39,643 nucleotides of DNA. Source: Phycisphaerae bacterium. GTDB lineage: Bacteria; Planctomycetota; Phycisphaerae; UBA1845; PWPN01. The translations under genes were made by a program, and so were the position numbers. Shown piece after piece: positions 19,811 through 32,957 of this stretch; within the stretch, counting starts at the first letter, position 1; the number at the start of each line of letters is the position of its first letter. A model generated the notes under the pieces. That model was not told the origin of the DNA. It did not search any database and was given only the letters and a program-made list of their open reading frames with translations. The DNA lies in assembly GCA_012729395.1 (NCBI GenBank), contig JAAYDF010000305.1, forward strand, positions 1 through 39,643. The letters are read 5' to 3'.

Positions 19811-21928
19811 ATGCAGACCCGGCGAATGATTTTTGCCCTGTTCGCTTCGATCACGGTGTTTTATCTGGCCCTGCTGATCATGACGCGATTTGCGCCTCCG
19901 ACTCCGCCGCCGGCCACACAGCCCGCGACGAGCCAGCCAACCGATCGCCCCGCCGCGACGGTCACCCAACCGGCCGCCACTCAGGCGGAGGCATGGGAGC
20001 AGACTCAACCCGAGACCAGGCCGGAGACCTCCCAGAACGTCATTGTCCGCGGCGGGTCGGATTCCGCACCCAAGCGGATCGGCAACACCGACGAAGGCAA
20101 CCCCTTCCCCATGGCCATCGACCTGTTGCCCCGTGGAGCGAGTGTCACCACCGCCGCCATCCGCGACCACTGGCAGACTGTCGACCGGCAAGCCCCCTAC
20201 ACCGTGATGTCGCCGATGCTCGTTCCCGACGCCTCACGCCTGGTGCACACCTTCCACTCGTTCGTCACCCCGCGGCTGCGTCTCCAGAATCTCGAGATCG
20301 ACGTCGACCTGGAGAACGTGCTCTGGTCCGTTGAACACCATGCCGCCGATCAGGCGGTGTTCGCTGTCCGCATCGAGGCCCCCGACGGCCGACCATTGGC
20401 CCGCGTGGTCAAGACCTACACCTTGGCCGAGCAGCCCGCCAAAGGCGATGCCAGCACCTACGATTTGGGCCTCACCCTCTCCGTGGAGAACCTCTCCGAC
20501 GGCCCGCTGGAAGCCATTCTTGTCCAGCAGGGCCCCGTCGGGTTCCACAAAGAGGAACAACGCACTGAAGACCGCCGCATCATCGGGGCCGTCTGGCAGC
20601 AGGGGCACTTGCTCTCGAAAGGACACTACCGCAAGGAAATCACCAAGAAACACGTGCTCGCGCTCGGAGCCGACAGCGACGAGCAGCAGGAACGCATCGC
20701 CTGGGCCGCGGTGACCAACAAGTTCTTCACCTGCATCATGGCGCCCGCCGGGCGACTCGGCCCGCAGGACCAGCCCCGATTCGCGCGCGTCGAGGCCCTG
20801 CCCCTCGTCGAGGAAGCCACCGACCACGATGAGGACATGACCTTCCGCTACATCAGCACGCCCCTGATCCTCGCAGCCCATGGCAATACCGCCGAGGTCG
20901 CCTTTGACTGCTACATCGGCCCTAAATCCAAGGTCGCCTTCGAGCGCGTCGAAGCCTACAGCCGGCGTCAATACTACGATGTCATTCGCGAAAGCTTCGC
21001 CTGGTGCACCGCCGACGCCTTGGTCGGCCTGATGATGTTCCTCCTCAACGCCTTCTACAAGGTTCCGCCCCACAACTACGGGATCGCCATCATTGTGCTG
21101 GTTCTTCTCGTCCGCGGTATTCTGCACCCTCTGACCCGCAGGAGTCAGATCAACATGATGAAGATGCAGAAGCAGCAGGCCGAACTCCAACCCAAGCTCC
21201 AGGTGGTCCGCGAAAAGTACGCCAACGACCGCACCAAGCTCAACCAGATGACCATGGAGGTCTATCGCGAGGCAGGCATCAACCCCGCTTCCAACATCCT
21301 GAGCTGCCTGCCAATGATGCTCCAGTTACCCATCTGGGTCGCCCTGTGGACCGCCCTGGCCTCGACCATCGAGATGCGCCACGCCCCGTTCGACGGCTGG
21401 TGGATTCGCGACCTGGCGGGGCCCGATACCGTCATCGCCTTCAGTGAGCCCGTGAACATCCCCATCATCGGGTTCCTCATGGGCGGACCTCTCCACTCCC
21501 TCAACCTGCTGCCTATCCTCCTGGGCATCTCGCAACTGCTCCAGGCCAAGTACATGCCGCATATGCGCTCCGCCAGCAACGCCCCGCGCAAGCCCGACGC
21601 ACCCCAGGATCAGATGGAACAGCAGCGCAAGATGATGATGTTCATGAGCATCATCTTCGTGTTCTTCCTGTACAACGCTCCCTCCGGCCTGAACCTCTAC
21701 ATCATGTCCAGCAACATCTTCGGCATCATCGAACAATGGCGCATTCGCCGGCACATCGCCGACCTCGAAGTGCGACGCGAGGCCGAAGAACGCCTCTACG
21801 GACCGAGACCGCCTAAACCGCGAAAGAAAGGCTGGCTCCACAAGAAGTGGGAAACGCTGGCCAAAGAAGCTGAAGAAGCCCGCAAGATCCAAAGCGAACG
21901 CAAGAAACCCGGCAAGACCAAGCGTTAG
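19811..21928 (+). CDS. yidC: membrane protein insertase YidC
   Basis: This 705-residue inner-membrane protein inserts and folds membrane proteins, alone or with the Sec translocon. The N-terminal anchor (6-26) is followed by a Pro/Thr/Gln-rich linker (28-80) and a large periplasmic beta domain (about 85-380). The conserved insertase core runs from about 395 to 640, with PHNYGIAIIVLVLLVRGILH carrying the groove arginine (R435), then LQPKLQVVREKY and SCLPMMLQLPIWVALW. The C-terminal tail (KKGWLHKKWETLAKEA to KKPGKTKR) is highly basic, as in forms that bind ribosomes. It is longer than E. coli YidC, mainly from the linker. The usual neighbours rpmH and rnpA are absent. Confidence 0.95.
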   Translation: MQTRRMIFALFASITVFYLALLIMTRFAPPTPPPATQPATSQPTDRPAATVTQPAATQAEAWEQTQPETRPETSQNVIVRGGSDSAPKRIGNTDEGNPFPMAIDLLPRGASVTTAAIRDHWQTVDRQAPYTVMSPMLVPDASRLVHTFHSFVTPRLRLQNLEIDVDLENVLWSVEHHAADQAVFAVRIEAPDGRPLARVVKTYTLAEQPAKGDASTYDLGLTLSVENLSDGPLEAILVQQGPVGFHKEEQRTEDRRIIGAVWQQGHLLSKGHYRKEITKKHVLALGADSDEQQERIAWAAVTNKFFTCIMAPAGRLGPQDQPRFARVEALPLVEEATDHDEDMTFRYISTPLILAAHGNTAEVAFDCYIGPKSKVAFERVEAYSRRQYYDVIRESFAWCTADALVGLMMFLLNAFYKVPPHNYGIAIIVLVLLVRGILHPLTRRSQINMMKMQKQQAELQPKLQVVREKYANDRTKLNQMTMEVYREAGINPASNILSCLPMMLQLPIWVALWTALASTIEMRHAPFDGWWIRDLAGPDTVIAFSEPVNIPIIGFLMGGPLHSLNLLPILLGISQLLQAKYMPHMRSASNAPRKPDAPQDQMEQQRKMMMFMSIIFVFFLYNAPSGLNLYIMSSNIFGIIEQWRIRRHIADLEVRREAEERLYGPRPPKPRKKGWLHKKWETLAKEAEEARKIQSERKKPGKTKR

Positions 21929-21929
21929 G

Positions 21930-21954
21930 GCGCTTCACGACTCATCGTAGCGGT
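21930..21954 (+). repeat. 25-bp perfect inverted repeat, left copy
   Basis: This sequence begins GCGCTTCACGACTC and ends GTAGCGGT. It is the exact reverse complement of 23220-23244. It starts 2 nt after the yidC stop codon. The two copies bound a 1315-bp segment with the lipoprotein gene. Confidence 0.85.
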
Positions 21955-22098
21955 TGCCCCCCCGCCGCGGCCTGCCCGCCGGGGCGGACGGGCTGTGGCG
22001 ACCGGCGTATTCCTTGTGGGTTCACCGGCCACCGGAGACGGCGGCCTCTATGCCATTGCGTGAAATGCTCTGGCCGCTCAGTCCGCGGCAAGCGCTCG

Positions 22099-22857
22099 TC
22101 AGTCCTCACGACGCCGCTCGGCGGTCGGCCCGCCAAAACCGGTCAGCTCCAGTCGGGCCTCCAGATCGTTGTCGCCGTACTGCTCCATGCGTACCATCCC
22201 AAACACGGGAGCCGCCGGGCTGACCCAGGTGCGCCGAAGATAGCGGACACCTTCATCCGTCCACTGTTCCTCATACACGGTCACATCCCACGAACGCCCC
22301 GCGGCCTCGATCACCGCCGCATGACTTGCCCGCTCGGCCCTTCGCCCGCGGGTGAACGTCGCCACCGGATCGTAGTCCCGCAATTCCTCCCGCCCCGCAG
22401 GCAAACCCAGCGGACGCCCATTCATCAACACCGTCACCTGAACATCCACCGAAACCATCCCCGCATGCATGACCTCGTACAAGATCTCGTACGACTCCAG
22501 GGCGACGAATCGTGCCCACTCTCCCGCCTTGGCATCCGCCAACGGCTCGAAGGACGGGACTTCGTACCCTGCCCGCTCTTGCGGTTCCACCGATCGGTCC
22601 GTCGCCGGGCTTGTCGTCGATGGCCCGCTCGCGTCCATCCGCCCGGGCGTGGGGGCACTCGTCACCACCGCGGAGCTGGTCGACGTGGCCTCATCACTGC
22701 TCGCCGATATGAACTCGCCAACCTCCGCTCTGCCCGCACGCGATGTCTCGGAACCCCCGGGAGAGTGCGCTTCCTGGTCACAGCCGACCACCCAGCCGAA
22801 CGACAAGACAAGAGCTCCAAGCCCGACATTCGCCGCTTTGAATCGAAGTGCCTGCAC
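22099..22857 (-). CDS. putative lipoprotein of unknown function
   Basis: The 252-residue protein has a lipoprotein signal: a short basic start, a hydrophobic stretch (about 11-25) and a VVGC lipobox with Cys near residue 26. A Ser/Thr/Pro-rich flexible linker (about 30-95) follows, then a soluble domain (about 100-245). In that domain I see YEILYEVMHAGMVSVDVQV, YDPVATFTRGRR, WDVTVYEEQWTDEGVRYLRR and VFGMVRMEQYGDNDLEARLE. I do not recognise the family; the strand pattern could be a lipid- or matrix-binding beta fold. The start is a GTG at 22857, with AGGAGA about 8 nt upstream. It is encoded against yidC and enclosed by 25-bp inverted repeats. Confidence 0.75.
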   Translation of the reverse strand: MQALRFKAANVGLGALVLSFGWVVGCDQEAHSPGGSETSRAGRAEVGEFISASSDEATSTSSAVVTSAPTPGRMDASGPSTTSPATDRSVEPQERAGYEVPSFEPLADAKAGEWARFVALESYEILYEVMHAGMVSVDVQVTVLMNGRPLGLPAGREELRDYDPVATFTRGRRAERASHAAVIEAAGRSWDVTVYEEQWTDEGVRYLRRTWVSPAAPVFGMVRMEQYGDNDLEARLELTGFGGPTAERRRED

Positions 22858-23125
22858 CGAACGCGTTCTCCTGCACAGATGGGCCGCCGCTGCCCGAAGA
22901 CCCCGGCCGCCATTGTCACCCTAATCCCGCGCCTCGCAAGCCTCAGCCACTTGCCTGGGCCAACTTGAAGCCTATCCTCTGGATAAACACGAACGCAGTG
23001 CGACTGCGGTGGGGTAGCGGCCGCCCCCCGAGGCGGAAGGCGTATCGTTGGCGAATTCGCCGGGACGAAGAGGCAGCCGCTGGGCGGCGATAAGGTTTCA
23101 ACCGCCGGTCGCCACGGCTCGGCTG

Positions 23126-31020: not shown

Positions 31021-32538
31021 TTAGACGGGAATCAGGCCGGGCTGGACGCTGCCTGCTTGAATCTGCTTCATGCTGCAGCAGTTGCGTCCCTTCTCCTTGG
31101 AGCAGTAGAGCTGCTTGTCCGCGGCCTCGATGAGCATCTTGGCGGTGAAGGGCTTGCCAGCGCGAGTCAGAAGTGCGGCCCCGACGCTGATGGTGACGCG
31201 ATGGGTTTGTCCATCCTTCTCGACGACGCACTCTTCGACCGCTTTGCGGATCTTGACGCTGATATGAGCCACGGTCATCCGATCCGCATTGGGCAGGATA
31301 ACCGCGAATTCCTCGCCGCCGTATCGTGCGACGAGATCCACACTGCGTATACAGGGTCCCAGGCAGGCGGCGACCCGCTTGAGCACCGCGTCACCCGTGA
31401 GGTGTCCATAGGCGTCGTTGAATTTCTTGAAATGGTCGATATCCATGATGATCAGACCGATGGGGCATTGCTTGCGGCAGCTCTCATTCCAGGCAAGGCC
31501 CAATCGGTCGTCGAACGCGGCCCGGTTGGCGATTCCGGTGAGCCCGTCCGTCCAGGCTTTTTTCTGAAGCCCTTCGTTCTCTTTGGCGATGGCTTCGGTC
31601 TGAAGCTGAGCAGCCAAGCTGAGTTCGGTAAGCACGTTACCGGCCTCGGCCTGAATCTCGGCGAGGGACCGCTTGCATCCATCGCTGACCGAAAGGATCG
31701 CCGCCAACTCGCGAAACTCGCGTTGCAGAGTCTCCAAGGACTTGGCTAAGTCATCCTCCCCGTGGAACAACGGCGAAGCGAGCAGTTTCTGGCGACGACT
31801 TGAAAGCACCACATCCGGGGCCGCTTCGCAGAGCAGATCGGCGAGGTCCGTGGCGGTCGCCACAACCGCAGCCAAGGCGCGGAGGCTTGGATCGCCGTCC
31901 ACCTTCTCCGGGGTGCGCTGATAGCGTACCGCATCGGACAGCCGATCGGGGATTCCCCATTCCGCCAGGAGATCGGCTCCCAGCTCGTGGTGCGAGTTCC
32001 CCAGGTAGGCTGATTCCTCCTTCTCTGTCCGCCCGAGCGTACCTCCCGCGGCCTGCAACACGGCTGGATAGTCCTTGGGCATGCCTACCGCGAAAACCAG
32101 CTTACCGATGTGCGAGAGCAGACCGGCGGCGAACGCTTCCTCCGGTGAGAGAGGCCTGTTTCGGACAGCCAGGTGACGCGCCGACACCGCACATCCCAGC
32201 GAGTGAGCCCAGAACCTCTCGTAGTCGAACCCTCGGCAAGCCTTGGCATCATCGGTGGACACCAAGGAGAAACTCAAAGCCATCAGGCGTACGGACCGCA
32301 TACCCAACAGCAGGACGGCGTCGCGGACGTTTGTGATCTTCTTGTTGGCTCCTACAAGGGCGGAATTCGCGTATTTGAGCAACCGGAGGGACAGTGCGGG
32401 GTCCGCGGCGAGCGTGTCGGCGAGTTGTCCAAGGGAGACGTCCTGGCTTTGGCACAGCTGCAGAATCTGAAGGGCCATGCCAGGAGGGCTGGGCAGGCTG
32501 GCCGTTCGTTTGATCTTATCCAGCAGGGTCCCACTCAT
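31021..32538 (-). CDS. HDOD-GGDEF protein, predicted diguanylate cyclase
   Basis: The 505-residue cytoplasmic protein has an HDOD domain at about 8-210 (LPSPPGMALQILQL, DPALSLRLLKYANSA, LLLGMRSVRLMALSF, GLLSHIGKLVFA). A helical linker (about 260-325) leads to a GGDEF domain at about 326-485. The GGDEF domain has DGLTGIANR, MDIDHFKKFND, the active-site GGEEF (407-411) and an intact inhibitory site RSVD (398-401) five residues upstream. It should make c-di-GMP and be feedback-inhibited by it. HDOD domains are signalling modules of unclear ligand. It lies 26 bp after a small gene with an MshEN-like, possibly c-di-GMP-binding, fold, so the pair is probably one operon. Confidence 0.92.
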   Translation of the reverse strand: MSGTLLDKIKRTASLPSPPGMALQILQLCQSQDVSLGQLADTLAADPALSLRLLKYANSALVGANKKITNVRDAVLLLGMRSVRLMALSFSLVSTDDAKACRGFDYERFWAHSLGCAVSARHLAVRNRPLSPEEAFAAGLLSHIGKLVFAVGMPKDYPAVLQAAGGTLGRTEKEESAYLGNSHHELGADLLAEWGIPDRLSDAVRYQRTPEKVDGDPSLRALAAVVATATDLADLLCEAAPDVVLSSRRQKLLASPLFHGEDDLAKSLETLQREFRELAAILSVSDGCKRSLAEIQAEAGNVLTELSLAAQLQTEAIAKENEGLQKKAWTDGLTGIANRAAFDDRLGLAWNESCRKQCPIGLIIMDIDHFKKFNDAYGHLTGDAVLKRVAACLGPCIRSVDLVARYGGEEFAVILPNADRMTVAHISVKIRKAVEECVVEKDGQTHRVTISVGAALLTRAGKPFTAKMLIEAADKQLYCSKEKGRNCCSMKQIQAGSVQPGLIPV

Positions 32539-32564
32539 ACTTCCACGTCCTTGGATGGAAGGCC

Positions 32565-32957
32565 TTACGCGTCCGCCATCATTGCCGCCATTTCCTGATC
32601 GCTCACGAGGAAGGTGCCCAGATACCGTGTCGCGTCCTCGACAGAAAGGACACCGCCCAATGCGAGGGCTTCGGTGATATCCGCTGGCACACGAAACTCC
32701 TGAATCTTGACGAGGGCGCTGACCTGCTGCTCGGTCAGGCAGTTGAGTTCCACCGCGATCTCTCCGAACCGACGGTCCGGTTCTTCTCGCTGGCGGTCGA
32801 GAATGATGTCAATCTGGTCCGTCCGGAGCAAGCCGTGACTCACCGCGATCATACCGATGGGCTCACGCACGAAGCGTTTGTGCTCGGCGAGTTGTCTCGC
32901 GACGTTTGGAGGTATCAGATCCCGTTCAACCAAGAACTCGACAAAAGGGTGCTTCAT
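32565..32957 (-). CDS. small MshEN-like protein, candidate c-di-GMP-binding partner
   Basis: The 130-residue cytoplasmic protein contains two consecutive 24-residue motifs at 33-56 (starting PIGMIAVSHGLLRTDQ) and 63-86 (starting RFGEIAVELNCLTEQQ), separated by six residues. They match the tandem pattern R-L-G-x2-L-x3-G-x-I-x4-L-x3-L-x2-Q of the MshEN/T2SSE-N domain, known in type II and IV secretion ATPases to bind c-di-GMP. In the first motif the Arg is Pro. Residues 5-28 look like a third, degenerate copy. Here the domain stands alone without an ATPase. GGGAGG lies 7 nt before the ATG; a longer frame to 33044 lacks this. The family assignment is my inference from the motif. Confidence 0.75.
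   Translation of the reverse strand: MKHPFVEFLVERDLIPPNVARQLAEHKRFVREPIGMIAVSHGLLRTDQIDIILDRQREEPDRRFGEIAVELNCLTEQQVSALVKIQEFRVPADITEALALGGVLSVEDATRYLGTFLVSDQEMAAMMADA

Follow-up and report, generated by a model that had tools for sequence, protein, structure and literature searches.

A small gene precedes an HDOD-GGDEF gene in a planctomycete

The window, meaning the whole stretch of DNA that was analysed, comprises positions 1 to 39,643 of contig JAAYDF010000305.1 from a Phycisphaerae bacterium. On its minus strand, a small ORF lies directly upstream of a gene for an HDOD-GGDEF protein:

32565-32957, minus strand: MshEN-like ORF of 130 amino acids, with an ATG start and a GGGAGG-type ribosome site
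32539-32564, no strand: intergenic gap of 26 bp, with AAGGA/GGAAG ribosome-site-like sequence before the HDOD-GGDEF start
31021-32538, minus strand: HDOD-GGDEF gene of 505 amino acids, predicted diguanylate cyclase, matching PF08668 and PF00990
31909-32496, minus strand: HDOD domain, residues 15-210 (PF08668, E 5.5e-53)
31336-31347, minus strand: RxxD I-site, RSVD, five residues from GGEEF
31306-31320, minus strand: GGEEF motif, located in the sequence
31081-31557, minus strand: GGDEF domain (PF00990, E 8.5e-44)

The coordinates agree with an earlier note on this DNA, which had described a 130-residue ORF separated by 26 bp from a downstream HDOD-GGDEF gene whose GGEEF and I-site are intact; both of these motifs were located. 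Homologues of the small ORF are 58-66% identical over their full length, and on this comparison the ORF is therefore a real gene. Its named relatives belong to Planctomycetota, several of them to Phycisphaerae. Scanning the 26-bp gap revealed no terminator, and together with the ribosome-site-like sequence before the second start this makes the arrangement consistent with a two-gene operon. A sigma-70 promoter scan gave no candidate above chance level, and a plasmid search gave no match.

The partner GGDEF domain has the metal and substrate residues (Asp, Asn and Asp344 equivalents), and the HDOD-GGDEF protein is predicted from its sequence to be a diguanylate cyclase. With six GGDEF, nine MshEN-type and six PilZ matches, the host genome is, as judged from its gene content, one in which c-di-GMP signalling is present.

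The small protein resembles the c-di-GMP-binding half of MshEN

NCBIfam NF053729 describes an MshE-related c-di-GMP motif and models the binding half of the domain (MshEN_N) as a 53-residue tandem motif. The small protein matched it with an E value of 6.8e-9 and 35.4 bits, slightly under the curated 38-bit cutoff. All 17 aligned family members matched it (17/17). A profile search against Pfam PF05157 gave no match. When PF05157 was mapped on the secretion ATPases of the host genome, most of its match lay beyond the tandem motif, in the MshEN_C part; by this mapping the model describes the C-terminal, non-binding subdomain, which the small protein lacks. Because PF05157 models the other, non-binding half, its miss carries no weight against MshEN_N. 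The earlier note had named PF05157 as the profile to search; it proved to be the wrong half, while NF053729 gave a positive answer below its cutoff.

Profile-profile alignment (hhalign) of the small protein with five MshEN_N domains of the same genome, four from T2SS-type ATPases and one from a deaminase insertion, gave E 1e-10 over 69 columns. An AlphaFold (AF2) model built from 17 sequences reached a mean pLDDT of 89.5. Its top Foldseek matches in the PDB were MshE with c-di-GMP (5htl_A/B; rmsd 1.0/0.6 Å, 56-57 columns, probability 1.00), and the remaining high-probability matches were PilF and PilB GSPII domains. The shortness of the match limited the Foldseek E values for 5htl to 0.12-0.16, and we placed weight on the probability, the rmsd and the run of related matches. 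The small protein is thus predicted to have the MshE four-helix bundle fold. When its single sequence was searched against the PDB with phmmer, no match was found. Matches to FumaraseC_C (E 0.005) and EpsG (E 2e-4) were set aside: both were far under their cutoffs and lay within the same hairpins, and we read them as a common helical pattern. Profile and predicted fold together support the small protein as an MshEN_N homologue, and the by-eye match in the earlier note was not a chance resemblance.

Tandem motifs and contact positions

In the AF2 model the small protein consists of four helical hairpins, namely N-terminal, motif 1, motif 2 and C-terminal:

32883-32948, minus strand: N-terminal helical hairpin, approximately residues 4-25, an extra repeat preceding the binding module (AF2 helices 4-11 and 17-25)
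32790-32861, minus strand: MshEN motif 1, residues 33-56, PIGMIAVSHGLLRTDQIDIILDRQ; fits the relaxed motif, with conserved Gly35 and Gln56 and with Pro substituting for Arg
32700-32771, minus strand: MshEN motif 2, residues 63-86, RFGEIAVELNCLTEQQVSALVKIQ; retains Arg63, Phe64, Gly65 and Gln86, with Asn72 substituting for Gly
32574-32690, minus strand: C-terminal helical region, approximately residues 90-128, replacing the MshEN_C subdomain (AF2 helices 76-100 and 106-128)

The spacer between the motifs is six residues long, compared with five in MshE. No family member contains the strict motif RLGxx[LVI][LVI]xxG[LVI][LVI]xxxxLxxxLxxQ twice, and nine of the 17 fit its relaxed form at both motifs. 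Two tandem 24-residue motifs of the MshEN pattern, as the earlier note described, are indeed found here, although only motif 1 of this locus fits the relaxed form. The note had also singled out the Pro that replaces the first Arg. Pro33 is there, but it is a family trait, with Pro at this position in 15/17 members, and motif 2 departs as well: Asn72 stands for the turn Gly and is followed by Cys73, where relatives mostly retain Gly.

The positions equivalent to MshE ligand contacts were the most conserved, with a mean of 0.84 compared with 0.54 at other module positions and 0.44 outside the module (Fisher p 1.5e-4 to 3.4e-4). The most conserved residues in the family are both Gln, both xhG Gly and the hydrophobic contact positions; Gln56 is kept in 16/17 members, and Gln86, Gly35 and Gly65 in 17/17. 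The relaxed motif of Wang et al. 2016 (PMC5013675) permits Pro, and in PilF GSPII-B, where Lys and Leu replace both Arg, c-di-GMP is bound at 6 nM (PMC11731258). By these analogies, Pro33 alone is no evidence against c-di-GMP binding. Taking motif, conservation and model together, we consider it reasonably likely that the small protein binds c-di-GMP.

The pair is conserved, and its parts are fused in another family

A search of 114 genomes in the order found 18 further stand-alone homologues. An HDOD-GGDEF gene directly followed the small gene, on its strand, in 14 of the 18, so that the gene order drawn attention to in the earlier note is conserved; profile similarity and linkage to GGDEF genes were thus both found. 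The four unlinked homologues (L016, L020, L021 and L022) have no HDOD-GGDEF neighbour and are among the more divergent. Viewed from the other gene, the best eight HDOD-GGDEF matches in the order all had the small gene (8/8), and most lower-ranking matches did not. A general rule that every HDOD-GGDEF protein has an MshEN partner was therefore rejected, many HDOD-GGDEF relatives having none.

Linkage was clustered on the tree, with 5 changes compared with a shuffled mean of 11.8. The within-family distances of the two proteins correlate (Spearman 0.53, with 12 of 5000 permutations as high), which may come partly from shared descent.

In four linked pairs, a small number, key motifs of one or both partners are missing. 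In two, in genomes G034 (L179/L200) and G026 (L015/L201), the GGDEF domain is dead, its catalytic motif being replaced (GADGF and GGILA), and the MshEN partners retain both relaxed motifs. In the other two (L023 and L024), a live-looking GGEEF is accompanied by the absence of the I-site and by an MshEN partner without one or both Gln.

In 11 genomes of another planctomycete family (f39), HDOD, GGDEF and MshEN form one polypeptide of approximately 650 residues. All 11 fusions matched NF053729, the first one above the cutoff, and all 11 kept both Gln. Over its whole length the small protein aligned with the last 120 residues of the fusion (123 columns, probability 99.5, E 2e-22), and the alignment placed its N-terminal hairpin and C-terminal region in the fused proteins too. 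The order of parts is reversed, with MshEN last in the fusion and the small gene first in the pair; on this comparison, fusion and pairing are therefore two distinct ways of arranging one set of three parts. Seven of the 11 fusions could be placed on a tree, and these had a single origin. In a model of the fused protein the domains were good, while a pTM of 0.49 left domain packing unpredicted. At one locus (L203:3589-3954), a single-domain CheY-like response regulator is encoded directly upstream of the fused gene.

Other MshEN-type proteins

MshEN motifs were also seen outside this family. In the host genome, L188:1153-2913 (contig C212 at about 21260-23020) encodes an 8-oxoguanine deaminase that exceeds the NF006055 cutoff with 572 bits. 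An MshEN c-di-GMP motif, which exceeds the NF053729 cutoff with 56 bits, separates the N-terminal part of this enzyme from its TIM barrel. Four family relatives (L205-L208) share the insertion, and a fifth, L209, has similar match extents; relatives from other families (L210 and L213) are without it. A nucleotide-signal domain within a purine deaminase was unexpected.

Also in the host genome is a Ser/Thr protein kinase with an MshEN-like N-terminus (L195:457-1686), a combination that Wang et al. 2016 (PMC5013675) had already listed. A Lindowbacteria ORF (L097:5102-6439) joins an N-terminal MshEN-like part to HDOD, with GGDEF absent. Spirochaete contigs (L095, L098, L109, L111, L125 and L136) encode proteins of 63-84 residues, barely more than two MshEN motifs. 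Stand-alone MshEN-like proteins of roughly 120-160 residues occur in several other phyla with no GGDEF gene nearby (L083, L093, L101, L102, L105, L110, L114, L115, L119, L122, L123, L129 and L134); their sampled neighbours include a few T2SS/T4P ATPase, pilin-like or HDOD genes.

A proposed two-gene c-di-GMP signalling unit

Fusion and conserved pairing, taken together, make it very likely that the two proteins work together, and, judging by the gene arrangements, the MshEN-like protein probably serves the HDOD-GGDEF signalling protein as a dedicated subunit. From the computed fold, motifs, conserved adjacency and three-domain fusion we infer physical contact, c-di-GMP binding and a direction of control. 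The small MshEN_N-fold protein and the HDOD-GGDEF protein would be made from the same transcript, and the former would dock on the latter. There, c-di-GMP would bind between the two Gln-ending hairpin motifs, and the ligand-bound small protein would alter the activity of its partner, either the HDOD output, the cyclase or both. The small protein would in this way add a second ligand check alongside the I-site. We modestly favour this reading as a whole, in which the small protein docks, binds c-di-GMP and controls its partner.

The earlier note had proposed a compact module for c-di-GMP synthesis and sensing. MshEN_N homology and conserved linkage support it in part, and the fusions go beyond what it predicted; the dead-GGDEF and degraded-MshEN pairs speak against its simple form. 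The narrower idea that the small protein senses only its neighbour's product is weakened by the dead-GGDEF pairs. Because these keep both relaxed motifs, the small protein does not appear to depend on ligand synthesis by its neighbour.

One alternative is that the small protein is a diffusible receptor, which would bind locally made c-di-GMP and act on a third target, the operon merely co-producing source and sensor. The stand-alone proteins of other phyla without a nearby GGDEF gene, some adjoining the ATPase, pilin-like or HDOD genes listed above, are compatible with this, as are the unlinked members of the order. Yet the single-polypeptide form in family f39 points to the HDOD-GGDEF protein as the target, and two pairs stay together despite a dead GGDEF; we regard a diffusible receptor as unlikely.

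Slightly less likely still is a degenerate MshEN, whose fold would be retained as a protein-protein adaptor or dimerization domain of the HDOD-GGDEF protein and would bind no nucleotide. Pro33, Asn72 and Cys73 in this locus and the lost Gln residues of L023 and L024 would suit such a role, and PilF GSPII-A, whose structure is solved, does not bind (PMC12002112). Against it stand the Gln, Gly and hydrophobic contact positions, which are the very ones the family conserves most, and the tolerance of the relaxed motif for Pro and of GSPII-B for Lys and Leu at the two Arg positions, discussed above.

That the adjacency is passive, arising by chance or only from synteny among close relatives, is very improbable: a divergent L,D-transpeptidase gene and a TIM-barrel isomerase gene are partly conserved neighbours in the host's own family too, but other families of the order keep the pair with neither found in the flanks examined (L068, L069, L156-L158 and L201), chance adjacency is below about 0.1% per genome because each genome holds only about one to three close HDOD-GGDEF genes, and the fusions in the distant family f39 disfavour it further.

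Beyond the two-gene signalling unit that we favour, we tentatively put forward a previously undescribed signalling complex in which a dissociable MshEN receptor subunit might gate HDOD-GGDEF output. It would exist both split into two genes and fused in the reversed order, and in some lineages it might have evolved into a pure receptor with a dead cyclase. Enzymes that make c-di-GMP usually outnumber the known receptors in a genome, and matching an enzyme to the receptor it serves is seldom straightforward. At this locus the partner of a receptor-type protein can be read from gene order and natural fusions, which also single out HDOD, a domain with a poorly understood signalling role, as the likely output. 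The MshEN/HDOD-GGDEF module, small and soluble, lends itself to tests in vitro.

Comparison with known systems

MshEN is a known c-di-GMP receptor, found in ATPases or joined to other signalling domains (PMC5013675). Like MshEN_N of Vibrio cholerae MshE (PDB 5htl), as described there, the small protein has two 24-residue hairpin motifs, a predicted four-helix bundle and the Gly, hydrophobic and Gln contacts. It differs in being a separate small protein without ATPase or MshEN_C, in having an extra helical hairpin on each side, and in the Pro, Phe and Ala at motif positions 1, 2 and 6. The GSPII-B and GSPII-A domains of Thermus PilF share the fold but are part of a pilus ATPase. They also bracket what the motif can tell: in GSPII-B the first motif Arg is replaceable and binding is still tight (PMC11731258), while GSPII-A has a near-perfect MshEN motif yet does not bind (PMC12002112).

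The multi-domain MshEN proteins in the main text of PMC5013675 likewise combine MshEN with signalling domains (REC, HD-GYP, CheA, CheX and kinases), including c-di-GMP enzymes. MshEN with HDOD-GGDEF, as pair or fusion, is absent from that main-text list. In a full-text search that covered few subscription journals, neither the pair nor the fusion turned up in earlier work, and the novelty of the pairing is provisional.

Stand-alone PilZ proteins such as Myxococcus PlpA, whose fold is unrelated, are also single-domain members of a c-di-GMP receptor family that act on partners, and PlpA illustrates that a stand-alone PilZ protein may not bind c-di-GMP (PMC8316039). In the AdrA/SadB system of Pseudomonas fluorescens, HDOD and GGDEF are on separate proteins, MshEN is absent and SadB has a YbaK-like domain; as proposed for our locus, a diguanylate cyclase and an HDOD protein belong to one c-di-GMP pathway, in which SadB binds c-di-GMP (PMC6543031).
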